Below are positions 1,798 through 55,594 of a stretch of DNA of 64,000 bases, in pieces. A program made the translations under genes and the position numbers. The DNA is taken from NCBI GenBank assembly GCA_016584305.1, contig JACEEZ010026192.1, positions 1 through 64,000 of the forward strand. The letters run 5' to 3'. The first letter of the stretch is position 1, and each line of letters starts with the position of its first letter. The notes beneath the pieces are model-generated. The model did not search any database and was not told the DNA's origin. It saw only the letters and a list, made by a program, of their open reading frames with translations. The DNA is from Chionoecetes opilio (lineage: Eukaryota; Arthropoda; Malacostraca; Decapoda; Majidae).

Positions 1798-4700
1798 GCA
1801 ATACTCTTAAGATTAGGATTCGTCATAGGATTCGTCTAACCCTGCGTACAAGGTGCGAGGAAAGTCTATAGACGCGTCCTAAGGCGGCGGATTAGGACGA
1901 AGCGCTGAGCGCTACATTTAGCAAAAGAGTCCAATTTGATTCATGAAATATCATACTAAAGGAGTCATCAGGAAAGTTATAAAAAATACAAAAAACACAA
2001 GATTAATATTTCTATGAAAATTGCTGAAGACTAAACGAATGAATTAATATATAAGAAAATTGTAACAGATAGCAACGTTCCGTTCAAAAGACACAAAACA
2101 TGACATTTGTCTTCGCTAGATCGAACGAGAAAAAATAATATTTTTTCAGGACAAGACTTCATTTTGGCCAGCTCTTTCAAGAAAGGAAAAATGTCCTATG
2201 TCCTGCGAGGGAATTTTCCATCCGAGAGATCGGCGAAGAGCAGGAGAGCCGACGGGCCCATCGCCCAACCCGTGATCATGTTTTTGGTATGGAAGGCGGC
2301 GCGGCGATCATGAATTGCCGCGCCGCCTTCCATGCGAGAGTACGTAAAAGGAGGGGGTTTAATGGCGAGGACTTCGCGGTCGTTTTCAAAGACCCGACTA
2401 TTTTTCCTGGCCAAAATGGGTTCTTTTTCTAATGGAGAAAAGGGTTATAAGGGACGAGAGTTCGCGGCGTTTTCGGGGAGACACCGACAATTTTTTTTGG
2501 CCAAAATAGGGTTTGGGAAATACTTTGGAGCTCCCCCCTTCCCGGGCTTTGACTGAAATGAACTCCCGCCGTTTTTGTTGCTTATTTTTTCACATCTGAA
2601 AAAGGTTCCGCGTGCCCACCTTGGTAACCCCACGGCCGCTATGAAATATGAGGTGCTAAAAAAAATTCAAGTCCAATTAGGTTAGGTTAGGTTGGGAAAT
2701 ACTTTGTGGTTAAGGTTAGGTTGGTATACTTTGTTTTAAGGTTAGGTTGGGGTGGGTATCTTGTGGGTTAAGGTTGGGTTAGGTTAGGATACTTGGGGTT
2801 TAAGGTTAGGTTAGGTTGGTATACTTTGGGGTTTGGGGGTTAGGTTGGGTTAGATTTTTAATAGTGCTTTGATGTTTTTTTGGGGACCAAAAATCCTTTA
2901 ATTTGGGGCTTCCCCCCACCAAAAAACCCCGTATTCCCGCCAGTTCCCCCAGGTTGTGGCTATGGGGGAAGAAAAAAAAGATAGGGGGAAGGATTTCCAA
3001 AGTTTTACCGGCCTTGTTCTAACGAGAGTTTTTTTTTGCGCAAACCCAAAAAAAAGATTAAAAAATGTATATTTTGGGGTTAAAGGTTGGGGTTGGTTTT
3101 CATTAAACCTATATGGTTGGTTAGGTTTCTTAAAACCTATATGGTTAGGTTGGGGTTCATTAAAAACCCTTACAGTTAGGTAGGTTTTAAAACCCTTAAG
3201 GTTAGGTTAATTTTAAATTTTTTTTTCATTTTTTTTTTTTTTTTTTTTTTTTTTTGCGCAAAATAAAACTACCCCATTAGAGCAACCCTATTGTGGGCCA
3301 AAAAAAAATAGTGGGGTTTCTCTGAAAAACCCCGCGAAATTCGCCCTTTATTGGGAGATTTTTTATTTTGCGCAAGCCCAGTTAAAACAAACAAAAATTA
3401 TCACGAATTTTAGGGTACCATTTCCTTTAAAAAAAACCCTATCTCCATAAAAAAAGCCTAAAACTTGGCCGGAAAGTTTTGGTCAGGGTTTATGGGTTTT
3501 AAAAACCTATAATGTAGGTTAGTTTACTTTGGGTTAAGTTTAGGGGTAAATCTTAAGAAAAAAAGGCTCCACCCTCTATCTTCTTATAGCCAAAAAGTTT
3601 GGGGACAGGTGGGAAACGGGTTTTTTTGGGTGGGGGAGCCACACAAAAGGGAAATATGCCCCCCCAAAAAATCCCAAACGGGGATTTTCCCCATTCATGA
3701 ACTTTATGGGGGAAAATTCCCCGTTTAAATCTATGTACTGGGTTTTCCTATTTGGGTTTTTTGTGGGGAGTCAATTTTTCCCCTATGGTGTGCCCCTTTT
3801 GGGGGGGACACACATATAAGGGAAAAATTTTTCCCAAAAAGCCCATGAACTAGGAAAAATTCCCTAGTTTAAGGATTTTTTTTGGGGGGGGGGGCCATAT
3901 TTCCATGGGTGCTCCCCCCCCCAAAAACCAGGTTTCCCCAGCCCCCAATTTGTTGGCCCATAAGAAGAAGATGGGAAATTGAGCCTCTTTTCTAAAGTGA
4001 AAAACTCACAGCCAAACTAGACCCCTTTCGAGCCCTTGTGCTGTGCCAAACCCTAACTAACGTAACGAACCTAACCAAACCTAACCAACCTCCCTCCCAA
4101 ACCCAAACCTAAAGGCCGGTACACGGGCCCTTTTTTCCCGGATTTTTTGGTATTTTGTCCCAAAAAGATGCCCGTAGTGTGGCAAAAAATCCGTTCGTCA
4201 CACGGCTTTTTCGGCTAGACATTTCTATGGCTCTAACGGGACCGCAACCAAAACTAAAAATAAACTTATGACCCTAAATTTTTAATACGGCCTGTAGAAA
4301 AAGTAAGGATCGGCACCCATTAAAATAAAAACAGAGTCTTAAAGAAGAAAGTTAGATACGTAGACCCAACTTTTGTGTAAAGCAGCGGGAGACCTTTTTT
4401 TTAAATTTTCCGGTTAGTTTGGGTTTCATTAAACCAAAAAGGTTTTTTAGGTTTCTTTAAAAACCTATAAGACCCGACTAATTCTCCCGGACAATTTTAA
4501 GTGTTTTTTCTGGGGGATCAGTGTTTTAAGGAAACGGTACCAAAAAATTTCGGTGTGATTTTTTTTTTTTTTAACTTTGGGCTTGCGCAAAAAAAAACAT
4601 CTCATTAAAAAATGCACCTATTAAAGCCAGGAAAAAAATAGTCGGTGTCTAAAAACCCGCGAAGACGTCCAAATTCCCAAATTGCTTTGGGTGGGTTTAG

Positions 4701-5647
4701 ATTTATTTTATTTTAAAGGGTTTGGTTTGGGTTATGAAAAAGCTAGGGTAGTTTGGATTAGGTTTGTTGGTTTTTAGGTAAAAAAAAAAATTTGATGGTG
4801 CCGTTTGCCGGGTGGTTGCCCCGCCAACACACCCCAACTCCTGGGGAAATATTTCCGTTTGGTTTGGTCTCCCGACCCTGACTTTTTAACCTGTTCATAG
4901 TTGATTTTTCTTTCGAGTTTTTTTAAACCCATTTCCATGGCGCAATTGAAAATAATGTGATACATATCTACCTAAAATTCTAGTTCTTTAACCAAAAAAC
5001 GTTTTAGTTAGGTTTAGGGGGGGGTTTGGTTTTTAAACAGATAATCGAAAAAAATAAGAAAATTACAAGACTACGGCAGTGGAAGAGAAATAGAGTTTAT
5101 GATTTTGTTCCATGGCTTAATTTAAATCACGATTTATTCTTTTTAAATTTTTTTTATAGTGAGCCTACCTAAATCGCTTTTTTTTCTCAACATGATACCA
5201 TTTTCAAAAAAGTTTGGGGGGGATGCACTTCAATCTGTATCACGTACGGATATCAAGGGGGAGGAAAATGACTCCCTCAGAGTAATAAAAACACCTCGTG
5301 ATTTGTCATGCCTGATCGCCGTTTTTTTTTAGTTTTGCTTGATATTACATCTCCCAAGTCTGTCCATATATAATCCTTTCGGCCCAAGCGTATCGTTGTT
5401 TAGTTATGTATCAACAAGTTGTCCAGTAATCTTCCTGTCACAAAAAGTTTCAAGTGGGCGGAGACCCCCAGTTTACGTCCTTAGGAGGTTTTTACCCGCC
5501 GCCCTGCTCGCTAGGACCCCTACACCCGCCCTAGCCAAACTCGAAATAGGACGAGCTAGCATTTAGGGTGCGCCGAGATGATTTAGGAGCCGGCCGCCAA
5601 TTTTAAAGACCAGGCGGTCGCAATCCCCAAATCTTTATAATATGGGC
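1798..5647. mobile_element. long inverted-repeat element, copy I (in zinc-finger pseudogene)
   Basis: Left end reads GC-AATACTCTTAAGATTAGG and right end CCCCAAATCTTTATAATATGGGC, degraded forms of the family terminus GCCCATACTTATAAAG followed by TTTAGGATTCGTC. It is flanked by TCAGG on the left and CCTGG (5648-5652) on the right. Zinc-finger coding DNA stops on one side and continues on the other, which fixes both ends. Inside, in order: the left arm (about 1798-2330), TTCGCGGTCGTTTTC modules, a short CCTAA/TTAGG block (2680-2860), TTGCGCAA modules, a palindromic block (about 3590-3980), and the right-end arm with CTCGCTAGGAC. No transposase ORF is visible, so it is probably non-autonomous. 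Homopolymers are inflated compared with copies II, IV and V. Termini and CWG-type flanks suggest PIF/Harbinger-like mobilisation, which is inference only. Confidence 0.8.
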
Positions 5648-5652
5648 CCTGG

Positions 5653-8160: not shown

Positions 8161-8164
8161 GTAC

Positions 8165-9219: not shown

Positions 9220-9239
9220 CAACAACAACAACACGAGGC

Positions 9240-9570: not shown

Positions 9571-9639
9571 AGTGTGTGCAGGCTTGTTTTTTGGTATTTG
9601 TGACGTTTATTGCCTTTTCGGGTAAATATCCAGTATGAC

Positions 9640-9960
9640 CGCGCAGTCCTCGTCCATTATAACCTACCGTACATACAGTATAGTCGCCAGCTGCACTAAT
9701 GTCGCCAGCCGCCAAATATTACGAATTATTGCATCACTACTGAGGTTATAATGGACGAGGATTTCGCGGTAGTTTCAGTTTTCGGTAAATTTCCAGATGA
9801 ACACCGAACTTCTTTTGGTGGACGAAACGACTTTTTTCTGGTGAGTTTTGATGCGTTTTGAATGAAGCTGCTAACCGTTTCTGTCGCCAATCACTTTTTT
9901 TATTTGTTTTATGTGATTTGCAACAAAAATGACGGTACGGTACATTCAGGCAATATTTTG
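9640..9960. repeat. dispersed repeat (GTCGCCAGCTGCACTAATGTCG block), copy 1
   Basis: This block, from CCTCGTCCATTATAACC to ACGGTACGGTACATTCAGG, recurs at 12504-12790 and 26640-26965, with a fragment at 23725-23790. In the other two copies it runs on toward the zinc-finger leader, so it belongs to the upstream flank of the duplicated zinc-finger unit. No coding signal. Confidence 0.65.
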
Positions 9961-10116
9961 GTAAAACTTTGGAAGAAGTCCTTCACCCCTATCTTTTTTT
10001 TCTTCCCCCTATAGCCAACAAGCCTGGGGAACTGGCGGGAATACGGGGTTTTTAGGTGGGGGAAGCAAATATAAGTGATTTATGGCTCCCCAAAAAATCA
10101 TCAAAGTCGCTATATG
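9961..10116. repeat. pre-satellite module (GGAAGAAGTCCTTCACCCC)
   Basis: AAACTTTGGAAGAAGTCC through TCATCAAAGTCGCTATATG. The same module immediately precedes satellite arrays at 24925-25085, 46700-46862 and 53940-54108, and occurs reversed at about 2860-3010. Non-coding. Confidence 0.7.
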
Positions 10117-10410
10117 TAAAAATCAAACCTAACCTAACCTTAACCACAAAGTATACCTAACCTAACCTTAACCACAAAGTATACCTATGCGAACCTAACC
10201 TAACCTTAACCACAAAGTATACCTAACCTAACCTAACTTTAACCACAAAGTATACCTAACCTAACCTTAACCACAAAGTATACCTAACCTAACCTTAACC
10301 ACAAAGTATACCTAACCTAACCTTAACCACAAAGTATACCTAACCGAACCTAACCTAACCTAACCTTAACCACAAAGTATACCTAACCTAACCTAACCTT
10401 AATCACAAAC
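10117..10410. repeat. telomere-like satellite array 1 (CCTAA-rich, 28-38 bp unit)
   Basis: About nine tandem units of ACCACAAAGTATA followed by two to four CCTAA pentamers and CCTTA. Unit length changes in 5-bp steps because the number of pentamers varies. CCTAA is the complement of the arthropod telomere repeat TTAGG, but here it is interstitial and interrupted by a constant 13-bp segment. Confidence 0.9.
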
Positions 10411-10439
10411 GGCCGCTTTTTTAAACTTGGACTAGGGAG

Positions 10440-11010
10440 AGTCTAACGTGGAGCTTCCATGTTAGACTAGTGGTACCAATGCCACGAACGCATTCTTTAG
10501 ACACCATCTTGGAGAGCTAACATAGTCTTATGTTGATCCACGACTGCGCTTGGGTTGGCAGCCCTGAACCAGGGAGATCATATATTGGGGGACGGAGAGC
10601 GGAAGTCATTTGTCTCCGCGCCCTGCTACCGAGAACAACAAAACACACCATACCATATATGAACCTATATTCTTCATTTATTCACTTTTTTACCCACATT
10701 TTCCTTGATCTTCATAGCTCTTCCCATTATTGGGAGTAAAGATTGTCATGGTCATGTTATAGTTATTATTTAGTTGCACAACTAATGATGCCTTAATCAC
10801 TAGTTGATAGTTGAAATTCATATCAGGGCAAACCTATATATTAAATATATATATCGGTCGACTTCTTGAATCAAAACATATAGTTCATCATACAAGTTTG
10901 GTCGCTATAATGATCCGGTGGTGGTGGTGGTATCAAATGTCTGACGTACTAGTACACACGCACGTATACACACAAGCAAGGATATTATAAAGTTATACTA
11001 TCCTTGCACA
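10440..11010. other. no gene seen; short hairpin and GGT microsatellite
   Basis: An imperfect hairpin AGTCTAAC...GTTAGACT lies at about 10439-10468. A GGTGGTGGTGGT run sits at about 10918-10931. A 69-codon ORF (10530-10739) has no recognisable features. Confidence 0.4.
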
Positions 11011-11014
11011 CAAG

Positions 11015-11165
11015 TGTCACGTGTGTCACAGTGAGGTGTTAGCCCCCCCGTGTGTCTTGTCTGACCTAAAGAGCGAACGCGCAGTTCTCGTCCACTACAA
11101 CAGAGTACCGCCAGGGCCACGGATACGGCATACGTACGGCGAGGGCCAGCAGTGGTCTATAGATA
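11015..11165. repeat. 150-bp dispersed repeat, copy 1
   Basis: GTGTGTCACAGTGAGGTGTTAG through CCAGCAGTGGTCTATAG is matched by 24450-24615 (TGACCTAAAGCATGCGAACG, GTCCACTATAACGGCG, GGCCACGGTACGGCG). Two diverged copies are present in this window. Function unknown. Confidence 0.55.
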
Positions 11166-12170
11166 CTATATATAATTTCGGGCACGCAAGACTCGAACCT
11201 ATGATCAGCGCATCAAGGTATACCCTGGGTACGTCTCTGTAGTAATCAGTGGGAGAATATTACGCTGAAAGGCTAATGTGGCAGCTATGTATTATCGTAA
11301 CATTGGCGATAGTGAGCTAAAATCGGCCCTATTTCGGAAATCAGCCGATCTTAGCTCAACACCGGCAAACATAGTTTTTAGGTTTAGGTTAAGTTATGTT
11401 TAGGTCTGGTTTAGGTTAGGTAAGGTTTATGATAGGTTTGTGTAAAGTTTTGTAGAGTTATTTAGGTTAAATAAGCGTCCGCGGTACGATTTCCGAAAGA
11501 GGCCGGTGACGGCTCGGTACGGGCATCTCCCTCAGCCCACCCTCGTAAGGTTATTGTAGCCATAATACACTCGTAAGTTGTCCCTTACGAGGGATTTTCG
11601 AGCATCCCTGCCGAGGTGGATAGATGTGTGGAAATGGGAGACTTCTGCCGTGGCCTCCCCGTAGAGGGATGTAAGGAACCGCTGTTAGCGTAGACTAGAC
11701 TATTATGACCAAAAAGAGAATAAATGTCTCCTCTGTTTCCATTAATTAAATGCAAGTGCTGCTGTATAGTCGTATAAGTGAGTGACTATTATATTGCAGA
11801 TAGTCTGGACTCGGCGGGCGAGGAGAGATAAACAAACCCAGATTTCGTAGGGCGCCAAACGCGGTCTTTAAAAAAATATTTCAGATGCTTCATAATCTGC
11901 AGTAGACGCATGTATATACACTCATATTTTGCCCAACAGAGCATTGACAATACCGCTACTTTGTCTTAGCATGGGCATTGGCATAGTATCGTAAATATCA
12001 TTAGACTCAAGTGTTGGACAGGGTCCTGGGTGTCTAACATTTCCAATACTATTCTCGTTAGTTTTAGACCAACTTAAGACTAATCCCCCCCGGAAAATGT
12101 TTAGAAAACGGAAATGCCTGTCTAAAGCCACGGTTAGTCTTAGGTTAGCCGAAGTCCACGTTTAAAGAAT
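11166..12170. other. no gene seen; degenerate TTAGG-type tract
   Basis: Mostly unique, non-coding sequence. A degenerate TTTAGGTTAGG-rich tract occupies about 11370-11475. Short ORFs lack any family signal. Confidence 0.4.
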
Positions 12171-12174
12171 CGGC

Positions 12175-12345
12175 CGAATGTATACCTAACCTTAGCCACA
12201 AAGTATACCTAACCTAACCTTAACCACAAAGTATACCTAACCTAACCTTAACCACAAGGTATACCTAACTTAACCTAACCTTAACCACAAAGTATATCTA
12301 ACCTAACCTAACCTAAACCACAAAGTATACCTAACCTAACTGGAC
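12175..12345. repeat. telomere-like satellite array 2
   Basis: Five units of the ACCACAAAGTATA plus CCTAA-pentamer satellite, one with ACCACAAGGTATA. It is followed by the post-satellite module. Confidence 0.9.
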
Positions 12346-12800
12346 TTATAATTTTTTGAGGCACCTCATATTTCATAGCGGCCGTGTGGGTTAACCAAGG
12401 CTGAGCACACGCTGGAACCTTTACAGATGTGAAGTACAATAAGCATACACTACAGTGCGGTAGTTCATTTCAGTCAAAGCCGGAAGGATGAGTTCCAAAG
12501 TATTTCCCAGTATAGTCGCCAGCTGCACTAATGTCGCCAACCGCCAAATATTACGAATTATTACATCACTACTGAGGTTATAATGGACGAGGACTTCGCG
12601 GTAGTTTCGGTTTTCGGTAAATTTCCAGATGAACACCGAATTTCTTTTGGTGGACGAAACGACTTTTTTCTGGTGAGTTTTGATGCGTTTTGAATGAAGC
12701 TGCTAACCGTTTCTGTCGCCAATCACTTTTTTAATTTGTTTTATGTGATTTGCAACAAAAATGACGGTACGGTACATTCAGGCAATATTTTTGCGGGTGG
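12346..12800. repeat. post-satellite module and dispersed repeat copy 2
   Basis: ATTTTTTGAGGCACCTCATATTTC through CAAAGTATTTCCC (12348-12510) follows the satellite here and also at 25455-25620, 47365-47522 and 54650-54808. It is then joined to the GTCGCCAGCTGCACTAATGTCG block (12504-12790), which leads straight into the zinc-finger leader. Confidence 0.7.
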
Positions 12801-19530: not shown

Positions 19531-19576
19531 CAAGAACAAGAAGAAGACTACAGGAGCAGCCGGTTTAAAGGCCTGG

Positions 19577-22500: not shown

Positions 22501-23047
22501 TATTATAGTGAGCCTACTTAAATCGCTTTTTCTCAACATGGATACCATTCTTTCATCAACAGTTTGGTCGGGGGATGCACTTCAATCTGTATCACGATAC
22601 ATGTGATATCAGCAGGAGAAACATGACTACCTCAAGAGTGAATAATTAAACACACGCTTGACTTGTCAGCACCACTGATCGCCGTATTTTTTCAAGTGTT
22701 TGCTTTATATTACATTCTCAATAGTCTGTCACATATTTAATCCCTTGCTCGGTCAAGCTGTATCGCTTTGATTTAGTATTTATCAACAAGTTCGTCCAGT
22801 ACATCCTCCTGTCACGAAAAAGTTCTCAGGAGTGGGGTGGAGCACTCCGTTTACGTATAGGACGAGTTTAGCCGCCCGCCCTGCCCTCGCTACGACACCT
22901 CACACCTGTCCTAGCCAAACTGACAATTAGGACGAGTCTCGAGCGATTGGATGCGCTCGAAATGATTTAGGGACGCCGGCCCGCCATATTTAAGGACTCG
23001 CGCGAGTCTAAGACGCGACGAATCCTAAAATCTTTATAAGTATGAGC
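19577..23047. mobile_element. long inverted-repeat element, copy II (3.47 kb, both ends intact)
   Basis: Begins GCCCATACTTATAAAGATTT and ends AAATCTTTATAAGTATGAGC, with CCTGG on both sides (19572-19576 and 23048-23052). It is the cleanest definition of the family. The left arm has three AGGATTCGTCCTA-type units; the right arm has (A/G)ACTCG and CGCGAGTC units. Internally: TTCGCGGTCGTTTC modules, TTGCGCAA modules, degenerate TTAGG blocks (20340-20440, 21310-21390, 22000-22110), and a palindromic block 20830-21250. The satellite array seen in copies IV and V is absent. No ORF longer than about 75 codons and no transposase motif, so it is presumably moved in trans. Short CCWGG/CWG flanks and a GGGCC terminus are reminiscent of PIF/Harbinger elements; that is inference. 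Confidence 0.85.
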
Positions 23048-23283
23048 CCTGGGGGGACATTTTTCGAAGAAGCTCTAAAACTACACCCTCTTATCGTCCT
23101 AAGACCGGACTTGGTTTACGGGGCCAAGAAGACTACTAAGAAGCATTTTCGGAGTTCATCTTAGCTCGTTGTAAGCTAAGAATTCTTAGTGCCACCGCTT
23201 CCACTTTAACCCAACAGCAGTGCGCCAGACACAAGTATGTATTTGGCGGGAAATACGATAAAAAACAAACCTCGGCGTATACC

Positions 23284-24615: not shown

Positions 24616-25089
24616 AGATACTCAGGGGATTCACAGAAGTTTAAAGGAATCAAAAGCCTTGGGGGCTAATCAATAAAAACTTCTTAATCTGGTATGTTGA
24701 ATTGAAAAAAAAGTAGTAGTTTTCGCTTACACTGATTTTGAGTATTTTCGTCCATACCTGGTGTCATTTCGTAACTCGAGTAGTCAAGTCAAATCTGCGC
24801 CTGAGTGTACGAAACGACTATGGTTCATATAGAATACGAAACAACTTTTGGTAATAAAAAAAAAAAAATGGGGGGGGACGAGAGTTTCGCGCGTCGTTTT
24901 CAGAGACACCCAACTCTTTTGGTAAAACTTTGGAAGAAGTCCTTCACCCCTATCTTTTTTTTCTTCCCCCCTATAGCAACAACTTTTCTTCTTTTTTTGC
25001 CTGGGAGAAACTGGCCGGGGAATACGGGGTTTTGGAGTGAGGAGCAACTATAAGTGATTATGTCCCAAAAAAATCATCAAAGTCACTAT

Positions 25090-25445
25090 AAGTAAAAATC
25101 TAACCTTAACCTAACCTTAACCACAAAGATCCCTAACCTAAACCTAACCTAACCTTAACCACAAAGTATAACCTACCATAACCTTAACCACAAAGTATAC
25201 CTAACCTAACCTAACTTAAACCACCAAAGTATATCCTAACCTTACCACAAGTATACTAACCTAACCGAACCTTAACACCAAAGTAGACCTAAACCAACCT
25301 TAACCACAAAGTATAACTAACTAACCTAACCTTAACCACAAAAGTATACATAACCTAACCTAACATAACCACAAAGTATACCTAACCTACCCTAACCTAA
25401 CCTTAAACCCCAAAGTTATACCAGACCTAACCTAACCTAACTGGA
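25090..25445. repeat. telomere-like satellite array 3
   Basis: About ten units of ACCACAAAGTATA with CCTAA pentamers, noisier than the other arrays and with single-base indels. It is bounded by the pre-satellite module (24925-25085) and the post-satellite module (25455-25620). Confidence 0.85.
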
Positions 25446-42266: not shown

Positions 42267-42306
42267 AAACGTCTAAGACGAATCCTAAATCTTTATAAGT
42301 ATGGGC
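42267..42306. mobile_element. solo right terminus of the inverted-repeat family
   Basis: GTCTAAGACGAATCC..AAATCTTTATAAGTATGGGC, abutting copy IV across CCAGG (42307-42311), so two termini meet back to back. Confidence 0.75.
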
Positions 42307-44085
42307 CCAGGCCCATACTTATAAAGATTTAGGATTCGTCTTAGACTCGCTCGAGTCTTAAATATGGCGGCCGGCGTCCTAAATCATTTCGAGCGCATCC
42401 TAAATCGCTAAGACTCGTCCTAATTTCGAGGTTTGGCTAGGACAGGGTGTGAGGTGTCCTAGCGAGCAGGGCGGCGGCTAAGACTCGTCCTAAGGACGTA
42501 AACATGGAGTGCTCCACCCACTCCTGAGAACTTTTCGTGACAGGATAGATGTACTGGACGAACTTGTTGATACATAACTAATCAAGCGATACCGCTTGGA
42601 CCGAGAAGGGATTATATATGTGACAGACTAGTGGGAGATGTAATATAAAGCAACACTAAAAAATACGGCGTCAGTGCATGACAAGTCACGAGTGTGTTAT
42701 TATTCACCCCTTTGAGGTAGTCTGTTCCTCCTGCCTTGATATCATGTATCGTGATACAGATTGAAGTGCACCCCACCAAACTGTTGATGAAGAATGGTAT
42801 CATGTTGAGAATAAAAGCGATTTAGAGTAGGCTCACTATAAATAAAAATTAAAAAAATTGAATAAGTCGTGATTTATTAAGCCATGGAACAATATCCATA
42901 TAACTCTATTTCTCTTCTCACTGCCGTCAGTCTTGATAATTTTCTTATTTGTTCTTTATATCAATCTTTTAATATACCAAACCCCACCTCTAACCTAACT
43001 TAACAGTTTTTGGTTGAAAGAACTAGATTCTAGGTAGTATATGTATCAGCATTATTATTCAATTGCGCCATGGGAAATTGGGTTTAAAAGACTCAGAATG
43101 AAGAAATCTACACTATGAAATAGGTTAGAATTGTCAGGCTCGAGGATGACCTAAACCAAACGGTAAATATTCCGCAGGAGTTGGCGGTGTGTTGGCGGGT
43201 GGCCAACCACCCGGACAATCGCGCACCATCAAATTAGTTTTTTTTAACCTAAATAACTCAACATAACCTAATCCAAATCTACCCTAAGCTTAACATAACC
43301 TAAACCAAACCTTAACATAACCTAAATCTAACCTAACCTAACTCAGTAATTTGGTAATAATGGACGATGACTTTGCGGTCGTTTTCAGACACCGACTATT
43401 TTTCCCTGGTCTTCAATAGGTGCATTTTCTAATGGAGATAGTTTTATTTTGCGCAAGCCCAAAGTTAGAAAAAAAAAAATCATCACCGAATTTTATGGTA
43501 CCGTTTCCATTAAAACACTGTATCTCCATCAGAAAAAGCACTTAAAACTTTGCCGGGAGAAATTAGTCAGGGTCTTATAGGTTTTAATGAAACCTAACCT
43601 AACCTTTTAGGTTTTAATGAAACCCAAACTAACCTGGAAAATCTTAAAAACAAGGTCTCCACGCTAAGCTGACACAAATGTTGGCTCTACGTATTATACT
43701 TACTGTCTTTAAGACATCTGTTTATATTTTAATGAGTGCCGATCCTTACTTTGTCTACATGGCCGATATTAAATTTCAGCGATCCATAATGTTATATTAT
43801 TTAGTTTTGGTTGCGGGTCCTGGAAGATGCCAGTAGAAGATGCTCGTAGCCGAAACGCCGTGTGACGAACGCGCATATTTTTGCCACCACTACGGGCATC
43901 TTTTGGTAGCAAAATACCAAAAGATGCCGGAAAAAGTGTCTGTGTGACACGGCCTTTAGGTTAGGTTAGGGCAGGTCAGGTTAGGTTAGGTTAGGTTACG
44001 TTAGGTTAGGTTAGTGCACAGCACAACGGGCTCGAAGAGGGGTGCTAGGTTAGGTCTGTAGAGTTTGTCATCTTTAGAATAGAGG

Positions 44086-44515
44086 CTCAATCTCCTATCT
44101 TCTTCTTATGGCCAACAAGCTTGGGGACATGGTGGAAACCTGGGTTTTTGGGTGGGGGAGCACACACATAAGGGAAATATGGCCCCCCCCCCAAAAAAAA
44201 TCCTTAAACTAGGGAAATTTTTCTAGTTCATGGACTTTATCGGGGAAATATTTCCCTTATATGTGTGCTCCCCCACAAAAGGAGCACACTCATAAGGGAA
44301 ATATGAGTCCCCACAAAAAAATCCCTAAACTAGGGAAAATTCCCTAGTACATAGACTTAATCCGAGTAATATTTCCCCGATAAAGTTCATGAACTAGGGA
44401 ATATCCCTAGTTTAGGGATTTTTTGGGGGGGTCATATTTCCCTTATGTGTGCTCCCCCACCCAAAAACCCCGGTTTCCCACCATGTCCCCAAGCTTGTTG
44501 GCTATAAGAAGAAGA
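44086..44515. repeat. 430-bp palindrome conserved in the element
   Basis: Outer arms TCTTCTTATGGCCAACAAGC..GGGGACATGGTGG and CCACCATGTCCCC..GCTTGTTGGCTATAAGAAGA enclose alternating AAACTAGGGAAATT / TTTAGGGATTTTTTG and ATAAGGGAAATATG / TTTCCCTTATGTG segments, themselves inverted. Equivalent blocks lie at 3590-3980, 20830-21250 and 52960-53390. Confidence 0.8.
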
Positions 44516-44588
44516 TAGAGGGTGGAGCCTTTGTTCTTAAGATTTACCCCTAACCTTAACCACAAAGTATATCTAACCTAACATTATA

Positions 44589-46163
44589 CCCAGCAAACAC
44601 AAAGACGGAGGGCCTCCGGAGGCCCTCCGTATGTCTTATCGGCGGCCTGACGGAAGTGTACGACGTAGGGCCGCTGGGAATTTGCTCAGAGGCTCACCGG
44701 CGGGCCGCTCCCAGCGGCCTGCCGTAGGGCATATGACCATTTGCCGCTGTTATATTAACTGATAGAGGAATATTTATGGTTATACTTTCTAAGTATATTG
44801 CAGATATAGTAATGTTTTAAGGGGTGTTGCACAACCCATTAGCCGATTAATAGACTAATGGGCTGTTCAACACTTATATAAACATTACTATATAATGCAA
44901 TATGCTTAGAAAATTTAACCAGAAATATTCCTGTGTCGTTATCCAGTAATACGATGAAAAGGAGATTGCTAGGATCATAATTGCTACGGACATTGTTTAT
45001 TTCGTAAGTACAAAAACATTTTCGTTATTGAGTTTACATGCTGGTGTACGTGGAACACTGAACGGCGTGAACAGCCATGTAGAAGGATATAGGTTGCGGC
45101 GAACAACATAACAACATCCACCCACTCGTGCGTTTTCCAAGTAACTGATTATTTTCACTCAGACACAGCGCCAGGCGCCGTCAAGGAATTCCTAAAAAAA
45201 CGTGTCGTACTGCAATTATTTATATTATTCAGTCTATTTCGATATAATGAAGGAGCGAAAAACATGTTATAACTAAGTTCTCATTATGTTATCGAGTGGT
45301 TAAGGGTGACAATTTAGGCCTTTTGTGGGTTTTTAACCCTTTGTAATGGCTATCGTACGTCTGGCAGTTTAGTACATTGCTAGCTGGGAAAAGATTTCAA
45401 ATAATATTCTATTCTAAATCATGATATTATTCATATGTTAACTCCATCATCTACATATTCCTTATTAGGTGTACCGTTGAGTATTGATATGTGTTGATAA
45501 TATGTCGGAAGTTATTGAAATAAGGGAAAATATGACCTTGTGTTATTCCGTAATAATCTTCGCCGCGGTTAATCAAGTGTTACTTTTATATGATACTAGC
45601 TACACACACAGACTAACTGATAACCTTTTTTCATGTAAACTCCTTCCTATGTACGTATCTCATCTTTATTTCTATGTATCTCTGGGTGTTCCTGATAAAG
45701 CTGGAAATATTTGAAATAAACTGATATGATAATTTCTATAAAATTATTATAAAAACTTTTATAACAATTTTTAATAGCTTGAACAGGCCTAATAATGTGG
45801 TGGTACCGATATTGAGATACTATGTATATTACTGAGTTAATATATATAATATGAAATGAATATTTCCCACTTACAAATACCTACTAGCTGCAGCCTCCGG
45901 AGGATTGACATCAAGTTGCCGCTGCTTGTCACTACTGATGTAATACTACATCAAGATAATCATATAACTGTTGTTTCAAAATGTTTACACATAGAAATAT
46001 TCAATTCTTGAAATTCTGTACATTAATTTTCAACATAGTAAATTATCCCGTCTGAAAATACACCAGCGGGCCTCCGGAGGGCTGACGGAGGTAAATTTGC
46101 CGCCGGCGGCCGCCGTTCGCCGCTCTACGGCCTACGTCGGCCCGCCAGTGATGGTTAGCTGGG
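44589..46163. mobile_element. 1.57-kb TA-flanked element with CCCAGC termini
   Basis: CCCAGCAAACACAAAG at the left, ATGGTTAGCTGGG at the right, TA on both sides (44587-44588 and 46164-46165). The paralogous copy V reads straight through (CATTATAGGTTTC at 53448-53458), so this is a clean insertion with a TA duplication. Subterminal GC-rich inverted parts (GCGGGCC, CTCCGGAGG) lie at both ends, including a perfect 24-bp palindrome at 44606-44629. A stem-loop of about 180 bp lies at 44755-44940. The 76-codon ORF at 45484-45714 has no recognised domain. It is a non-autonomous DNA element, probably of the Tc1/mariner-type target class, family unknown. Confidence 0.8.
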
Positions 46164-46464
46164 TAGGTTTCATTAAAACCTATAAGACTCTGACAAATCT
46201 TTCCCGGCCAAGTTTTAGTGCTTTTTCTGATGGAGATAGTGTTTTTAATGGAAATGGTACCATAATATTCGGTGATAATTTTTGTTTGTTTTTAAACTGG
46301 GCTTGCGCAAAATAAAACTATCTCCGGTAATAATGGGCGAGAGTTTCGCGGTCGTTTACAGAGACACCGACTATTTTTTCTTGGCCTACAATAGGTGCTT
46401 GCTCTAATGGAGATAGTTTTATTTTGCGCAAAAAAAAACAAAAAAAATGAAAAAAAATGAAACA

Positions 46465-46625
46465 ACCTAACCTTATAGGTTTTAATGAAACCTAACCTAA
46501 CTGTAAGGGTTTTAATGAAACCTAACCTAACCATATAGGTTTTAATGAAACCTAACCTAACCATATAGGTTTTAATGAAACCTAACCTAACCATATAGGT
46601 TTTAATGAAACCTAACCTAACCTTA
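46465..46625. repeat. tandem 33-bp repeat (TTTTAATGAAACCTAACC)
   Basis: Five units of AACCTAACC.TATAGGTTTTAATGAA in tandem. The reverse-strand ORF repeating GFIKTYMVRL is an artefact of it. Shorter relatives are at 53770-53860 and 25720-25800. Confidence 0.8.
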
Positions 46626-46863
46626 ACCACAAAGTATACATTTTTTTAATCTTTTTTTTATGGGTTTGCGCAAAATAAAACTCTTCATTAGAACAAGGAA
46701 CGGTAAAACTTTGGAAGAAGTCCTTCACCCCTATCTTTTTTTTCTTCCCCCTATAGCCAACAAGCCTGGGGAACTGGCGGGAATACGGGGTTTTTGGGTG
46801 GGGGAAGCAAATATAAGTGATTTATGGCTCCCCAAAAAATCATCAAAGTCACTATATGTAAAA

Positions 46864-47345
46864 ATCTAACCTAACCTAACCTTAACCACAAAGTATACCT
46901 AACCTAACCTAACCTAACCTTAACCACAAAGTATACCTAACCTAACCTAACCTTAACCACAAAGTATACCTAACCTAACCTAACCTTAACCACAAAGTAT
47001 ACCTAACCTAACCTAACCTTAACCACAAAGTATACCTAACCTAACCTAACCTTAACCACAAAGTATACCTAACCTAACCTAACCTTAACCACAAAGTATA
47101 CCTAAACCGAAACCTAACTTAACCTTTAACCACAAAGTATACCTAACCTAACCTTAACCACAAAGTATACCTAACCTTAACCACAAAGTATACCTAACCT
47201 AACCTAACCTAACCTTAACCACAAAGTATACCTAACCTAACCTAACCTTAACCACAAAGTATACCTAACCTAACCTAACCTTAACCACAAAGTATACCTA
47301 ACCTAACCTAACCTAAACCTTAACCACAAAGTATTCCTAACCTAA
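46864..47345. repeat. telomere-like satellite array 4
   Basis: Fourteen ACCACAAAGTATA units with two to four CCTAA pentamers each, the most regular array in the window, bounded by pre- and post-satellite modules. Confidence 0.9.
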
Positions 47346-48075
47346 CCTAACCTAACTGGACTTAGAATTTTTTGAGGCACCTCATATTTCATAGCGGCCG
47401 TGTGGGTTAACCAAGGCTGAGCGCACGCTGGAACCTTTACAGATGTGAAGTACAATAAGCATACAATACAGTGCGGTAGTTTCATTCAGTCAAAAGCCGG
47501 AAGGAGGAGCTCCAAAGTATTTCCCAAGCACCTATTGTAGGCCAAGAAAAAATAGTCGGTGTCTCTGAAAACGACCGCGAAACTCTCGTCCATTATAACC
47601 CTATCTCCATTAGAAAAAGAACCTATTGTAGGCCAGGAAAAAATAGTCGGTGTCTTTGAAAACGACCGCGAAGTCCTCGTCCATTATAACCGGCAGTCCT
47701 TGACGTATCTCTCGCTATGGAAGGCGGCGCGGCGATCATGTGGTTGGCGATGGCCTGTCAGGCATCTGCCTTGCTCTTCGCCGATCATCTCGGCATGGAA
47801 AATTCCCCTCGCAGGACATAGGACATTTTTCCTTGCTTGAAAGAGCTGGCCAAGGATCTCTTGGTTAAGTTTGTGGTTAAGGGGTCTTGTCCTGAAAAAT
47901 ATTATTTTTCTCGTCGATAGAGCGAAGACAATGTCAATGTTTGTGTCTTTTGAACGGAACGTTGCATATCTGGTACAATTATTCTTATAGATGAATTCAT
48001 TCGTTGTAGTCTTCAGCAATTATCATAGAAATATTAATCTTGTGTTTTTTGATATTTTTATACCTTTCTGATGAC

Positions 48076-48802
48076 TCTTAAGTAGTCGTCCAGACCCATT
48101 TTGTTTTTGCCGAATTATGTTGAATGTATTTCAAAACACCTAATCCACCTAAAATAATTGATTTCCAGGCCTTATTTCCGTAAAAACACGACTTTTGTAA
48201 AAAGCGCGCGAAAAAAAAAATCTTCCCGCCAACAGGGCTCGACGTTATTGATGACGTCAGAACAGGGACGCCCCCAGACCCCTGTCTGGCACCTGTCGCA
48301 AAATTTTTATGGGTTTTTACGGANTCCCAAAAATGAAAATATCATATTACGACTCAAAATCCATGTAATTATGCTCTCTTTCGCGGAAATTGACAGCGAC
48401 ATAGTTTTTTGCATGTGCAATGATAGTTTTGTGTGACTTTATAATGTAATTATATTTGTGAGTCAATTATCGTATTTTCGTGTACGATTCTCAACCATGT
48501 ATCGTATGGATAGTCAATTGTCATACAAGTACGACAATACTACTTTGCAATATTTTCGGAGGGAAATGCCAAGCGTCGCAATATGAATAAATGCTTTCAA
48601 AGAACCATCGTCTTAAGACTTATAATATATTATCATGCTCATTAATGTATTGGTACAGAATCAGTGTTGTATTCCAAATATTTCACAAAAAGTAAATCTT
48701 TGATAAACAGAAGTTACGGATAGACCGTATATATGTTAGTGACTAAGACATTAGTCAGCGTTATTTTGACGAAGGCTTTTGACTAACTTACGTTTTGTGT
48801 GC
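48076..48802. other. no gene seen; contains a single N
   Basis: Unique AT-rich sequence separating element copies IV and V, with an N at 48324. The 92-codon ORF at 48158-48436 spans the N and has no family signal. Confidence 0.4.
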
Positions 48803-48837
48803 ACCCACTCCTGAAAACTTTTCGTGATAGGATAGAT

Positions 48838-51379
48838 CAGGGGTTCTCAAACTGGGTGCGCGGCACCCTGGGGTGCCACGGACAGCGCTAGGGGTGCCAC
48901 AAGATTGCCATGAATTTTGGCAATAATGGCAATAGAATGTAATAGTACTCCTTGCGTAACCAAATTTTCTTTGTTTATACGCGTCGGTCGTCCAGTACCT
49001 GATCGGTTTTGTTCCCATTTTGTCAGTGAGGCACTATACATCGAGCTGTACGTGTGTATTCCTTGCTGCTGTCTGTATTCTGCAGCTGTATTGAACTTGC
49101 AATGGATAAGTTTGTCATTAAGAAGAGAAAACATGGAGATAGTGGTGAGGGTGAAGAAGGAAACGAAAGTAGAAGTAACGAGTGAAAAAGATTTGGCCAT
49201 TCCCACAGCAAAAAAATCAGCTTCCAAAAAAAGCAGGAAAAATCGCTCCTATTTGGATAATTATCTAGATTTGGATTCTTTTGGTGTGGCGATGAGGTTA
49301 ATCCTACACCACTGTGTGTTATTTGTGGTGATAAATTAGCTAATGAGGCGATGGTACCCAGCAAATTAAAAGAGGCATTTATATCTTTGAAACATGGTCA
49401 TCTTGCCAACAAGCTCGATCCTACTTTGAAGGACTTTTAAATGAGCAAAAAACAACAGAGGGTGATGCTTTCTAAAACAGTCACAGTTTCTGATAAAGCA
49501 CAAGAGGCCAGCTACTTAGTTGCAGAGTTAGTCGCTAAAAGCATGAAACCTCATACAATAGCAGAGACACTAATTCTTCCGGCTTGTAGTGCCATTGTAA
49601 AAACAATGTTTGGAAGTGAAGCAGAAAAACAAGTGAAAAAAATTCCCGTCTCGGATAGTACCATCAGCAGACGGATTCATGATATGTCAGCAGACATAGA
49701 GGAAACTGTATGTGCCTCTGTAAAGGAAAGTGAAATGTTTGCACTTCAGGTAGATGAGTCCACAGATATTGGAGGTAAGGCTCAACTATCGGCATTCATT
49801 CGCTACATTCATGATGTTAAAATAGTGGACCAGTTTTTCTGTTGTAAGGAACTTGAGGAAACAACAACAGGCAATGATATTTTCGCTACATTAAGTGAGT
49901 ACATAAAATCAGTTGGTTTGTCCTGGCAATCTTGTGTAGGATTTGTACAGACGGGGCGCCTGCCATGATTGGCTCAATTAAAGGATTTGTGTCACTAGTG
50001 AAGAAAGAAAACAGCAGTGTCATAACAACACATGCTTTCTCCATCGTGAAGCGCTGGTTGCTAAGACAATTGGCAATGGATTTGAAGTCTGTACTGGAGA
50101 AAGTTGTAAAAATGGTGAACTTTATAAGAGTCGGCCACTTAAGACTCGTCTGTTGCTAAGCTGTGCGAAGAGGTTGAGGCAAAACATGTGAATCTTCTTC
50201 TACACACGGAGGTGAGATGGCTGTCAAGAGGGAAAGTATTGTCACGTGTGTATGAACTGAAGGAAGAGATGCTTACTTTTTTCACCCTTGAACAACAAGA
50301 GGAATTCTGTGACTTACTGGCAGATGACACTTGGTCTGCCAAATTGTCTTACTTGGTAGACGTATTTGAACATTTAAACAAGGTAAATTCCAGCATGCAA
50401 GGTAAATCAGAAAATATCTTATCTTCCACTGATAAAATTAACACTCTGAGAGAAAAACTGCGATTGTGGGTTGGCAGAGTAAAGAAAGGCAATTTGGATA
50501 TGTTCCCACATGCTGCAGCAGCAACAAGCGGTAGACGTAGACTTCGTAGAGAGATCATTTCTATTATTTCTGAGCATCTTGAGAAACTGGGAAAAGCAAA
50601 CTTCAAGCACTATTTCCAGACATATGCACTGAAAACTATGACTGGATAAGAAACCCATTTGTTGCACCAGTTATCAACCCAATCTCAGCTTACCGGGGGC
50701 CTTACCCTCACGGAAGAAGAGCAGTTAGTGGAAATGCGTAATGATCGTAACCTGAAGTTATTGCACATGCAGCTGCCTCTTGACGAATTCTGGGTTCAGA
50801 TGAAGGCTAAGTATCCTCAAGTTGTAAAGAAAGCTCTGGTAATCCTTATCCAGTTCTCTACATCTTACCTGTGTGAGCTGGGATTTTCTGTTCTAGCAAA
50901 CATTAAAACGAACAAGAGGGCAAGATTGCAAACTCTTGAAGAAGAAATGAGAGTATGTTTGTCCACTATTCAACCCAACTTGAAAAGGATCTGTCAGTCA
51001 CATCAAGCACATGTATCTCACTAAATCAGGTTAGCTTTTGTTTGTTTTGCTTATTTGACTATCAGTGATTATCATGCCTTTTTTCTTCTTCTTTTTATGC
51101 TACTTTGCATTTATAACTCTTAAGTTATCTAATATTCTGAATCTAATTCACTGATGAGTTACTATTTTTGGGCATGTACTACAGTAGCCTACATCATATG
51201 TTAATTTTGGTTTGAGTACGGATAATAATTTTAAATAATTAATTAAAGTAATTCCAACAGGTACAATTTTATATCAGAAGTTAATTCATGTGAGGAGGGG
51301 TGATGGTGAAAAAGGGGTGCCACAGAAAGGATTATATAAATCCAGGGTGCCATCACTGACAAAAGTTTGCGAACCTCTG
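48838..51379 (+). mobile_element. hAT transposon, 2.54 kb, with 8-bp target duplication
   Basis: Terminal inverted repeats CAGGGGTTCTCAAACT and AGTTTGCGAACCTCTG, flanked by perfect GGATAGAT duplications (48830-48837 and 51380-51387). The empty site occurs in copy IV at 42543-42550. The terminus type, 8-bp duplication and the transposase all agree with a Charlie/ZBED-like hAT element. Confidence 0.95.
49102..51024 (+). pseudogene. hAT transposase, ZBED/SCAND3-like, frameshifted
   Basis: Start ATG at 49102 (MDKFVIKKRK). A frame change near 49190 leads to YLDNYLDLDSFG, then another to a BED-type finger (PLCVICGDKLANEAMVPSKL..LKH, about 49300-49400). The frame from 49441 carries the RNase H-like core: FALQVDESTDIGGKAQLSAF (first catalytic Asp region, 49740-49800), CTDGAPAMIGSIKGF after a shift (second Asp, about 49940), [19 protein letters not shown] (50190-50245), EFWVQMKAKYPQV and SYLCELGFSVLANIKTNKR (the C-terminal dimerisation and Glu region, 50790-50920), ending at 51024. 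At least four frame changes or stops lie within 1.9 kb, so it is not functional as read. The enzyme would cut and paste the element via its terminal repeats. Confidence 0.9.
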
Positions 51380-54109
51380 GGATAGATGTACTGGACGAAC
51401 TTGTTGATACATAACTAATCAAGCGATACCGCTTGGACCGAGAAGGGATTATATATGTGACAGACTAGTGGGAGATGTAATATAAAGCAACACTAAAAAA
51501 TACGGCGATCAGTGCATGACAAGTCACGAGTGTGTTATTATTCACTCTTTGGAGGTAGTCATGTTCCTCCTGCCTTGATATCATGTATCGTGATACAGAT
51601 TGAAGTGCATCCCCACCAAACTTTTTGATGAAGAATGGTATCATGTTGAGAATAAAAGCGATTTAGAGTAGGCTCACTAAAAATAAAATTTAAAAAATTG
51701 AAAAAGTCGTGATTTATTAAGCCATGGAACAATATCCATATAACTCTATTTCTCTTCCCACTGCCGTAGTCTTGATAATTTTCTTATTTGTTCTTGATAT
51801 CATCTGTTAATATACCAAACCCCACCTCTAACCTAACTTAACAGTTTTTGGTTGAAAGAACTAGATTCTAGGTAGTATATGTATCAGCATTATTATTCAA
51901 TTGCGCCAGGGGAAGGAAATTGGGCTTAAAAGACCCAGAATGAAAAAATCTACACTATGAAACAGGTTAAATTGTCAGGCTCGAGGATGACCTAAACCAA
52001 ACGGTAAATATTCCGCAGGAGTTGGCGGTGTGTTGGCGGGTGGCCAACCACCCGGACAATCGCGCACCATAAAATTTTTTGTTTTTTTTAACCTAAATAA
52101 CTCAACATAACCTAATCCAAATCTACCCTAAGCTTAACATAACTAAACCAAACCTTAACATAACCAAATCTAACCTAACCTAACTCAGCAATTTGGTAAT
52201 AATGGACGATGACTTTGCGGTCGTTTTCAGACACCGACTATTTTTTCCTGGCCCTTCAATAGGTGCATTTTTAATGGAGATAGTTTTATTTTGCGCAAGC
52301 CCAAAGTTAAAAAAAAAAAAAAAATCATCACCGAATTTTATGGTACCGTTTCCATTAAGCACTGTATCTCCATCAAAAAAAGCACTTAAACTTGGCCGGG
52401 AGAAATTAGTCAGGGTCTTATAGGTTTTAATGAAACCTAACCTAACCTTTTAGGTTTTAATAAAACCCCAAAACTAACCTGGAAAATCTTAAAAACAAGG
52501 TCTCCACGCTAAGCTGACACAAATGTTGGCTCTACGTATTATACTTACTGTCTTTAAGACATCTGTTTATATTTAATGAGTGCCGATCCTTACTTTGTCT
52601 ACATGGCCGATTTTAAATTTCAGCGATCCATATGTTATATTATTTATTTTTTGGTTGCGGGCCCCCGGAAGATGCCAGTAGAAGATGCTCGTAGCCGAAC
52701 GCCGTGTGACGAACGCGCATATTTTTGCCACCACTAGGGGCATTTTTTGGGTTTAGCAAAATACCAAAAGATCCGGAAAAAAAGTGTCTGTGTAAACAGG
52801 GCCTTTAGTTAGGTTAGGGCAGGTCAGGTTGGGTTTTAGGTTGGGTTTAGGTTACGTTAGGTTGGGTTTTAGTGCACCAGCACAAGGGGCTCGAAGAGGG
52901 GTGCTAGGTTAGGTCTGTAGAGTTTGTCATCTTTAGAATAGAGGCTAAATCTCCTATCTTCTTCTTATGGCCAACAAGCTTGGGAACATGGTGGAAACCT
53001 GGGTTTTTGGGTGGGGAGCACACACATAAGGGAAATATGGCCCCCCCCCAAAAAAAAATTCCTTTAAAACTAGGGAAATTTTCCTAGTTCATGGACTTTA
53101 TCGGGGAAATATTTCCCTTATGTGTGCCCCCCCCCACAAAGGAGCACACTCATAAGGGAAATATGAAATCCCCACAAAAAATCCCTAAACTAGGGAAAAT
53201 TTCCTAGTACATAGACTTAAACGGGGTAATATTTCCCCGATAAAGTTCATGAAATAGGGAATATCCCTAGTTTAGGGATTTTTTTGGGGGGGCCATATTT
53301 CCCTTATGTGTGTGCTCCCCCCCCAAAAACTCCGGTTTCCCCCCATGTCCCCAAGCTTGTTGGCTATAAGAAGAAGTAGAGGGTGGAGCCTTTGTTCTTA
53401 AGATTTACCCCTAAACCCTTTAAACCCCAAAGTATATCTAACCTAACATTATAGGTTTCATTAAAACCTATAAGACTCTGACAAATCTTTCCCGGGCCCA
53501 AATTTTAGTGCTTTTTCTGATGGAGATAGTGTTTTTAAAGGAAATGGTACCCTAATATTCGGTGATAATTTTTGTTTTGTTTTTAAACTGGGCTTGCGCA
53601 AAAAAAACTATCTCCGGTAATAATGGGCGAGAGTTTCGCGGTCGTTTACAGAGACACCGACAATTTTTTCTTGGGCCCACAATAGGTGCTTGCTCTAATG
53701 GAGATAGTTTTATTTGCGCCAAAAAAAAAAAAAAATGAAAAAAAAATGAAAACAAATAAACTTAACCTAACCTTATAGGTTTTATGAACCTAACCTAACT
53801 GTAAGGGTTTTTAATGAAACCTAACCTAACCCCTATAGGTTTTAATGAACCTAACCTAACCTTAACCACAAAGTATACATTTTTTTAATCTTTTTTTTAT
53901 GGGTTTGCGCAAAATAAAAAATTCATTAGAACAAGGAACGGTAAAACTTTGGAAGAAGTCCTTCACCCCTATCTTTTTTTTTCTTTCCCCCCATAGCAAC
54001 AAGCCTGGGGAACTGGCGGGAATACCGGGGGTTTTTTTGGGGGGGGGAAGCAAATATAAGTGATTTATGGCTCCCCAAAAAATCATCAAAGTCACTATAT
54101 GTAAAAATC

Positions 54110-54640
54110 TAACCTAAACCCAAACCTTAACCACAAAGTATACCTAACCTAACCTAACCTAACCTTAACCACAAAGTATACCTAACCTAACCTAACCTTA
54201 ACCACAAAGTATACCTAACCTAACCTAACCTTAACCACAAAGTATACCTAACCTAACCTAACCTAACCTTAACCACAAAGTATACCTAACCTAACCTAAC
54301 CTTAACCACAAAGTATACCTAACCTAAACCCAACCTTAACCACAAAATATACCTAACCTAACCTAACCTTAACCACAAAGTATACCTAACCTAACCTAAC
54401 CTTAACCCCAAAGTATACCTAACCGAACCTAACTTAACCTTAACCACAAAGTATACCTAACCTAACCTTAACCACAAAGTATACCAACCTAACCTAACCT
54501 AACCTTAACCACAAAGTATCCTAACCTAACCTAACCTTAACCACCCAAAATATACCTAACCTAACTAACCTTAACCACAAAGTAACCTAACCTAACCTAA
54601 CCTAACCTTAACCACAAAGTATTCCTAACCTAACCTAACC
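54110..54640. repeat. telomere-like satellite array 5
   Basis: About sixteen units, collinear with array 4 of copy IV and with extra or missing CCTAA pentamers; some units are degraded (ACCACCCAAAATATA, ACCACAAAGTAACC). Confidence 0.9.
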
Positions 54641-55594
54641 TAACTGGACTTAGAATTTTTTGAGGCACCTCATATTTCATAGCGGCCGTGTGGGTTAACC
54701 AAGGCTGAGCGCACGCTGGAACCTTTACAGATGTGAAGTACAATAAGCATACAATACAGTGCGGTAGTTTATTTCAGTCCAAACCGGAAGGGGGAGCTCC
54801 AAAGTATTTCCCAAGCACCTATTGTAGGCCAGAAAAAAAAGTCGGTGTCTCTGAAAACGACCGCGAAACTCTCTTCCATTTAACCCTATCTCCATAGAAA
54901 AAGAACCTATTGTAGGCCAGGCAAAAAATAGTCGGTGTCTTTGAAAACGACGCGAAGTCGCGTCCATTATAATCCGGCAGTCCTGGACGTATCTATCGCT
55001 ATGGAAGCAGGCGCGGCGATCATTTGTGGTTGGCGATGGCCTGTCAGGCATCTGCCTTGCTCTTCGACGATCTTCTCGGCATGGAAAATTCCCCTGAAGG
55101 ACATTAGGACATTTTTCCTTGCTTGAAAGAGCTGTGCCAAGGATTGAAAGTCTTGTTCCTGAAAAATATTATTTTTCTCGTCGGATAGAGCGACGGGACC
55201 AAGTCCATGCGTGTGTCTTTTGAACGGAACGTTGCATATCCGTTACATTATTCGTATAGATTAATTCTCTTCGTTTTTAATCTTCAGCAATTCATCATAG
55301 AAATATTAATCTTGTGTTTTTTTTGATATTTTATACCTTTCTGATGACTCTTAGTAGGATATTTCTGAAATCCAATTGGACTCTTGCTAAATGTAGCGCT
55401 CACGCTTCGTCCTAGCGCCGTCTTAGGACGCTCTTAGAAACTTTCCTCGAACCTTAGGACGCAGGGGTTAGGACGAATCCTAGGACGAATCCTAAATCTT
55501 TATAAGTATGGCCCAGAGCTTGCACCGGCTGGACTTGTTGTCTTGTTGTTGTTGGGGGTTTTGAAGGGCCGTGCATGCTGTGGTGCCACAGCCT

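Follow-up and report, generated by a model that had tools for sequence, protein, structure and literature searches.

We found that five copies of a long repeat in the first 64,000 nucleotides (the window) of contig JACEEZ010026192.1 of the crab Chionoecetes opilio (GCA_016584305.1) very probably represent one family of non-autonomous, cut-and-paste PIF/Harbinger transposons (PHIS, PIF/Harbinger-ISL2EU-Spy) of the NuwaI type, with a separately mobile satellite element nested inside it. The family is new, of Harbinger/NuwaI type, and its hitch-hiking cargo is unusual. This cargo, a block of telomere-like minisatellite, is an independent smaller element of ~0.5-1.3 kb that has its own ends and also travels alone. 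The original prediction, made from the window alone, had described five copies with shared termini and a fixed order of internal modules, moved by a Harbinger-type enzyme. The termini, copies and module order are real, and a non-autonomous transposon is borne out by the termini, the CWG duplication and the empty site of one copy.

Termini, target sites and age of the 4.1-kb element

The 16-bp end GCCCATACTTATAAAG has 339 + 337 exact matches in the 1.94-Gb host assembly (20,818 contigs), against 0 + 1 for the reversed-pattern control, and with up to three mismatches it occurs seven times in the window, where 0.70 matches are expected. It belongs to a 31-bp perfect terminal inverted repeat (TIR), GGCCCATACTTATAAAGATTTAGGATTCGTC, that begins with GGC. 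Short forms of the terminus are GGCCCATAC and GGCCCATACTTATAAAG, and the outermost bases of the element, GG and CC, adjoin CWG. Among 100 listed places of the 676 matches, at least 22 pairs of ends face each other at distances of ~0.7-5 kb. We retrieved 20 of these pairs (all except C2422 and C2556); the copies are 673-5050 bp long, and 15 of them measure 3.4-3.5 or 4.0-4.35 kb. Eight other loci were cut around matches of the 16-mer, two of which (L003 and L006) were too poor or too N-filled to judge. A 4120-bp consensus built from the 11 retrieved copies that are 3.9-4.4 kb long has a mean column agreement of 94.5% and contains no stop-to-stop frame of more than 84 codons. The family of this 4.1-kb element probably numbers a few hundred copies. 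In the window, the following copies, partial ends and insertions were identified:

1797..5648, plus strand: copy I, both ends present (left end degraded), within a C2H2 zinc-finger array; flanks CAG (1794-1796) and CTG (5649-5651)
19576..23048, plus strand: copy II, both ends present, ~3.4-kb form without the telomere-like block; duplication CTG at 19573-19575 and 23049-23051
27215..27467, plus strand: copy III, only a left-end fragment (consensus 1-249); left flank CAG
42271..42307, no strand assigned: extra truncated terminus, the first ~37 bp of the right end, head-to-head with copy IV with two bases (CA) between them
42310..48086, minus strand: copy IV, right end complete, left ~160 bp absent; broken by the nested insertion 44589-46163
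44059..44560, no strand assigned: central foldback palindrome of the 4.1-kb element, in copy IV, from folding
44589..46163, no strand assigned: nested insertion of ~1.58 kb with ends CCCAGC.../...GCTGGG (CCCAGCAAAC / CCCAGCTAAC) and an apparent TA duplication, in copy IV and foreign to the 4.1-kb element
48803..55514, minus strand: copy V, left end complete, right ~205 bp absent; broken by the hAT element 48838-51379
48838..51379, plus strand: nested hAT element, CAGGGGTTCTC...GAACCTCTG, with a perfect 8-bp duplication, GGATAGAT; interrupts copy V and its transposase relic and is foreign to the 4.1-kb element

All five copies belong to one family, as predicted, and both ends are present in copies I and II only, copies III, IV and V being incomplete. 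The lengths first given for copies V and IV include the nested hAT element and the nested insertion, respectively. The former, whose ends we take to be of hAT type, carries a broken, ZBED5/FAM200-like gene with a sub-threshold match to DUF4371; among named proteins, the gene piece comes closest to those of the shrimp Palaemon (up to 85% identity), and one unnamed match reaches 96%. A Pfam scan of nine open reading frames (ORFs) of the window detected zinc fingers and the sub-threshold DUF4371 and nothing else. The predicted palindrome is real, with a folding energy of -187.5 kcal/mol for 44059-44560 (z -26 against 100 shuffles). An insertion with ends like CACACAAAAC...GTTAGTC seemingly sits at one position (consensus ~3910) in copy V (48787-48802) and in the retrieved locus L008 (near 1295-1310).

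On the left, the three bases directly outside GGCCCATAC are CAG or CTG in all 20 retrieved copies, those outside the right end are CAG or CTG in 17, and the two sides are identical in 15; window copy II likewise has CTG on each side. The next base outward is C in 12 of 20 left flanks and G in 14 of 20 right flanks. Since these outer bases vary, the CCWGG flanks of the original prediction break down into CWG, the outermost base of the element itself and a mild bias in the next base: the duplication is the 3-bp CWG, and a 5-bp CCWGG duplication was dismissed. According to the accessible text of Han et al. 2015 (PMC4482050), a CWG duplication is what defines NuwaI among the PHIS transposons.

The two flanks of copy I, when joined, are 86% identical to the uninterrupted zinc-finger array at 13843-14090, ungapped at the junction, and this array is a paralogous empty site of copy I, the one such site seen. 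Zinc-finger-type arrays with a period near 80-84 bp are located at 1419-1797, 5651-5789, 13340-14202 and 31053-31586, one array being split by copy I, and the frame 13184-14284 encodes C2H2 fingers according to Pfam.

Five of 22 measured copies (L010, L017, L019, L022 and L023) are 99.1-99.5% identical to the consensus, counting substitutions in shared columns only, and four of these five contributed to the consensus. On the same scale, window copies IV, V, II and I are 98.4%, 96.5%, 90.0% and 81.0% identical; the many small indels of copy I are perhaps assembly noise. One copy (L018) is a 675-bp deletion form. Two of the youngest copies carry a G+C-rich nested insert at consensus position 76, with differing lengths (60-245 in L010 and 60-600 in L023, in element coordinates with the terminus first), and because it occupies one position in both, this cargo appears to have been handed on by transposition. 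Some copies have thus moved recently, and the family is young and recently active.

The telomere-like block as a separate element

The telomere-like block is carried by 12 of the 20 retrieved copies. Seven copies (L012, L013, L015, L016, L024, L026 and window copy II) lack just the interval from consensus ~630 to ~1353, and two others (L009 and L018) lack the block through larger deletions. The block has the ends GGAAATACTTTGGA.../...TCCAAAGTTTTACC, and its right end CTTCTTCCAAAGTTTTACC has 497 + 556 matches in the genome (1,053 exact; control 0 + 0). We retrieved 30 of these right ends, and 24 lack the flanking sequence of the 4.1-kb element. At 13 of these 24 solo places both ends were identified, the left-end pattern being unmatched in the other 11. 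The 13 solo units with both ends are 470-1314 bp long, and an exact 8-bp duplication borders six of them, at five distinct sites (AAAATGTC, AAAATATC, AAAATATG, AGTTTGAC and, twice, CACGCCTG; the two CACGCCTG units look like one duplicated site). The ends of the unit are inverted but imperfect (GGAAATACTTTGGA / GGTAAAACTTTGGA). Short inverted ends and a target duplication are as in a miniature inverted-repeat transposable element (MITE) with a hitch-hiking tandem repeat. Members of the hAT superfamily have 8-bp duplications and YARNG-type ends; the small element shows 8 bp in six of 13 units, but its ends begin GGAAATAC / GGTAAAAC and are not of the YARNG type.

The array inside the block is a 33-bp minisatellite composed of (TTAGG)3-4 and an 18-bp spacer, as distinct from genuine telomeric DNA. 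In 18 units examined, 4-23 spacers separate short TTAGG runs, and the longest pure run comprises 3-6 repeats. A pure (TTAGG)n interstitial telomere tract was rejected on this pattern, and with at most 3-6 consecutive TTAGG in a 33-bp minisatellite, naming the blocks interstitial telomeric sites, as in the earlier suggestion that the element could seed such sites, is a stretch. The spacer resembles the ends of the small element (ATACTTTG), with 26 of 3000 spacer shuffles reaching the score of the 5' end, 222 that of the 3' end and 17 both; this likeness was noticed afterwards and is only suggestive.

The window contains five units of the satellite element:

2514..3009, plus strand: nested in copy I
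9960..12509, minus strand: alone, split by ~1.77 kb of other DNA (10410-12176)
24921..25620, minus strand: outside the five copies
46702..47526, minus strand: nested in copy IV
53940..54813, minus strand: nested in copy V

The predicted CCTAA arrays are therefore present, as a separate nested unit rather than as a module of every copy: the unit is absent from window copy II and occurs twice outside the five copies, both times reversed. The solo unit at 9960-12509 is flanked by a 284-bp direct duplication (9676-9959 and 12508-12791, 98% identical), far longer than a target duplication, which is single in a paralogue near 26676-26962.

The original prediction had the 4.1-kb element moving these blocks around the genome, and as the chief vehicle seeding them genome-wide it could call on the 12 of 20 retrieved copies that bear the block, several of them young. 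We consider this role improbable. Most retrieved block ends (24 of 30) have no flank of the element, and the small unit has its own ends and duplications. The junction unit of the minisatellite has 7124 + 7737 exact matches in the genome (14,861; control 0 + 0), and 100 listed matches form 32 arrays, nine of them close to a perfect match of the small element's right end and none within 6 kb of a perfectly matching terminus of the 4.1-kb element. Both counts are low because exact places alone were compared, and at least one array (C156) is inside a 4.1-kb element by its flank (L038).

Another history, in which the block is native to the 4.1-kb element and was deleted from the 3.4-kb copies between short direct repeats, is improbable. 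The sequence CTTG stands on either side of the block and the tree of the copies is star-like, as such deletions would have it, but a unit with the identical two ends is found solo elsewhere, between 8-bp duplications of unrelated target sequence. An array native to the element was likewise dismissed on its absence from seven copies and its solo occurrence elsewhere.

A transposase relic, a second family and the proposed mode of transposition

The 4.1-kb consensus contains, ~200 bp in from its right end and in minus-strand orientation, a relic of the N-terminus of a HARBI1-type transposase. It scores 9.0 bits in a whole six-frame search with a HARBI1 profile for which we used the 55 of 120 listed proteins that have 340 residues or more, and its 66-residue piece alone scores 14.6 bits, the best of 2000 shuffles reaching 3.4. 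The reading frames of the relic are interrupted by stops. Using tblastn with the consensus relic, we located the following pieces in the window:

5282..5380, minus strand: relic in copy I, weak (E 0.009)
22644..22846, minus strand: relic in copy II (E 7e-10)
42518..42670, plus strand: HARBI1-type N-terminus relic in copy IV (E 9e-27)
42658-42705, plus strand: weak extra relic piece in copy IV (E 0.07)
48805..48837, plus strand: first relic piece in copy V, ahead of the hAT element (E 0.018)
51382..51543, plus strand: second relic piece in copy V, beyond the hAT element (E 5e-27)

The earlier statement that the copies hold no transposase is correct for working genes; that they hold no trace of one is dismissed by this relic.

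A second family shares the terminus. The same 17 bp followed by a base other than A occur at 29 places, and among the 14 retrieved, ten have the common 17 bp with another interior, mostly GGCTCCATAAGCC..., and constitute this second family; the other four are slightly altered ends of the first family (three right, one left). CWG adjoins nine of 11 second-family termini, and a reading frame ~200 bp inside the terminus scores 27.1 bits against the HARBI1 profile (best of 2000 shuffles 5.9). The relic and the second-family fragment align with a score of 105; 2000 shuffles reach 43 at most, and 200 six-frame translations of the shuffled consensus reach 50 at most. The Harbinger-type enzyme first proposed to move the element fits these results: the CWG duplication, the HARBI1-type relic, and the terminus and fragment shared with a second family.

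The fragment is common genome-wide, and stops occur in 149 of the 150 matches scored among 1769 candidates. One locus (L090) holds a second-family element whose altered ends are separated by 2.28 kb; it is enclosed in an inverted repeat (97.5% identity) with arms of ~1.05 kb that extend ~440 bp past the ends of the element. Three second-family sites have no second terminus within ~4.9 kb. The stretches searched with the profile (the consensus, L090 and three from the second family) gave no match to the DDE part. Pfam and PDB searches with the fragment gave nothing relevant, and a protein database gave one candidate and no match. Compared with 14 transposase loci of this genome (tblastn, alignment), the fragment reaches a best score of 40, which five of 200 shuffles equal. 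Of these comparisons, the HARBI1 profile alone identified the fragment. PF13359 has at least 150 matches in the genome above the cut-off (150 scored of 1203 candidates), and since many are in open frames, a source of the enzyme acting in trans is plausible. One Harbinger gene outside the window shares 79% identity with a gene of the crab Eriocheir and 73% with one of Portunus.

We propose that the ancestor of the element encoded a HARBI1-type transposase, the broken N-terminal piece ~200 bp inside the right end being what would be left of it. A transposase made elsewhere in the genome would bind the shared 17-bp terminus and move the element in trans, probably assisted by a Myb partner as published for NuwaI; insertion duplicates CWG. 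The small satellite element would have inserted into an ancestral Harbinger copy, a capture suggested because filled and empty forms exist, and both the ~3.4-kb form without the block and the ~4.1-kb form with it have spread.

Several observations weigh against one Harbinger family with a mobile satellite as its cargo. The HARBI1 profile gives no match at E 0.01 in the window's own six frames, and the relic, which surfaced via the consensus, matches the profile weakly when taken alone. In the stretches read, no pair of these termini encloses an intact transposase, and the search for an autonomous relative with a DDE transposase, proposed with the original prediction, gave none there. In a comparison by eye with the listed termini, which include 100 of the 676 canonical ones, the 150 listed PF13359 matches all lie elsewhere. 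Five of the 20 flank pairs mismatch: one lacks a C (L024), two have one changed right base (L020 and L021), and two pair CTG with CAG (L012 and L023). The flanks of window copy I also differ by an A/T swap in CWG (CAG left, CTG right). Concerning the cargo, seven of the 13 solo units have no exact 8-bp duplication, and the two sides of the block inside the Harbinger element, GGTGCTTG / GTTCCTTG, match imperfectly. The tree does not cleanly split the copies with and without the block, so precise loss of the block in some copies is possible.

That the element belongs to another superfamily of DNA transposons with short duplications, and picked up a Harbinger fragment by chance, is improbable. 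No full transposase was found inside the 4.1-kb element, and duplications of ~3 bp occur in some other superfamilies too. Against this, two families with a common terminus share the N-terminal fragment about equally far from the end, and CWG is the published signature of NuwaI in the accessible text of PMC4482050. Segmental duplication, or a satellite-like block spread without transposition, is very unlikely even in a window full of repeated host DNA (zinc-finger arrays, flanks common to copies III and V) where several copies lack one end, because the 10-bp flanks beyond CWG are unlike among the 20 retrieved copies while the ends and CWG recur, the site of copy I exists uninterrupted in a zinc-finger array, and the ends face each other in pairs (at least 22 among the matches listed).

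Two further palindromes were detected in the window: a near-perfect one of 1433 bp at 15123-16555 (93% self-complementary), either natural or a foldback artefact of long reads, and a shorter one of ~293 bp at 17897-18189 (81%).

Significance and comparison with known systems

The preferred reading, a NuwaI-type Harbinger family with a nested satellite element, links a young decapod family, probably of a few hundred copies, with a Harbinger lineage that duplicates CWG. The empty and filled forms show that nested transposons, and not just the breakage and repair of telomeres, can scatter telomere-like minisatellites. Should the arrays behave as telomere-like sites, and so have a chromosomal effect, they would be relevant to chromosome rearrangement and to telomere-targeting mobile DNA in crustaceans. 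More tentatively, nested DNA transposons might disperse telomere-like repeats through this genome on a large scale, with the small minisatellite-bearing element hitch-hiking in a recently active NuwaI-type family and building telomere-like sites genome-wide that could serve recombination or telomere-targeting mobile DNA; we regard this as possible and rather doubtful. As context for such mobile DNA, the accessible text of PMC10871703 describes endogenous viruses of other crustaceans, some of which insert into (TAACC/GGTTA)n; nothing viral was seen at this locus. An open-licence literature search gave no description of a telomere-like minisatellite borne by a Harbinger element.

As described in the accessible text of Han et al. 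2015 (PMC4482050), NuwaI is a group of PHIS transposons with TIRs of 12-61 bp that usually start with GGG, found in animal hosts including one crustacean, and its autonomous copies encode a HARBI1-type DDE transposase and a second ORF with a Myb/SANT domain. On that description, the crab element resembles NuwaI in its CWG duplication, its 31-bp TIR within this range, its animal host and its HARBI1-type relic. It differs in that no working ORF was seen, in its GGC start, and in bearing a large foldback and nested elements.

Tetris, a foldback transposon of Drosophila virilis (PMC4079207), is comparable as far as its abstract goes: both elements are modular, rearranged, non-autonomous and foldback-like, with internal tandem repeats and ends common to a smaller element. 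Tetris differs in having repeats of ~220 bp within its TIRs, and its abstract names neither a telomere motif nor a CWG duplication.

The small satellite unit has its closest counterparts in tandem repeats that ride MITEs, among which the accessible text of a review (PMC9659126) includes (GTCY)n in Lepidoptera, Xstir and miDNA4 in Xenopus and HindIII in bivalves. Like those MITEs, the crab unit is short and non-coding and has an internal tandem array spread by transposition. Unlike them, as they are presented there, it has the telomere motif of arthropods as its core and resides within a Harbinger element that carries it along.

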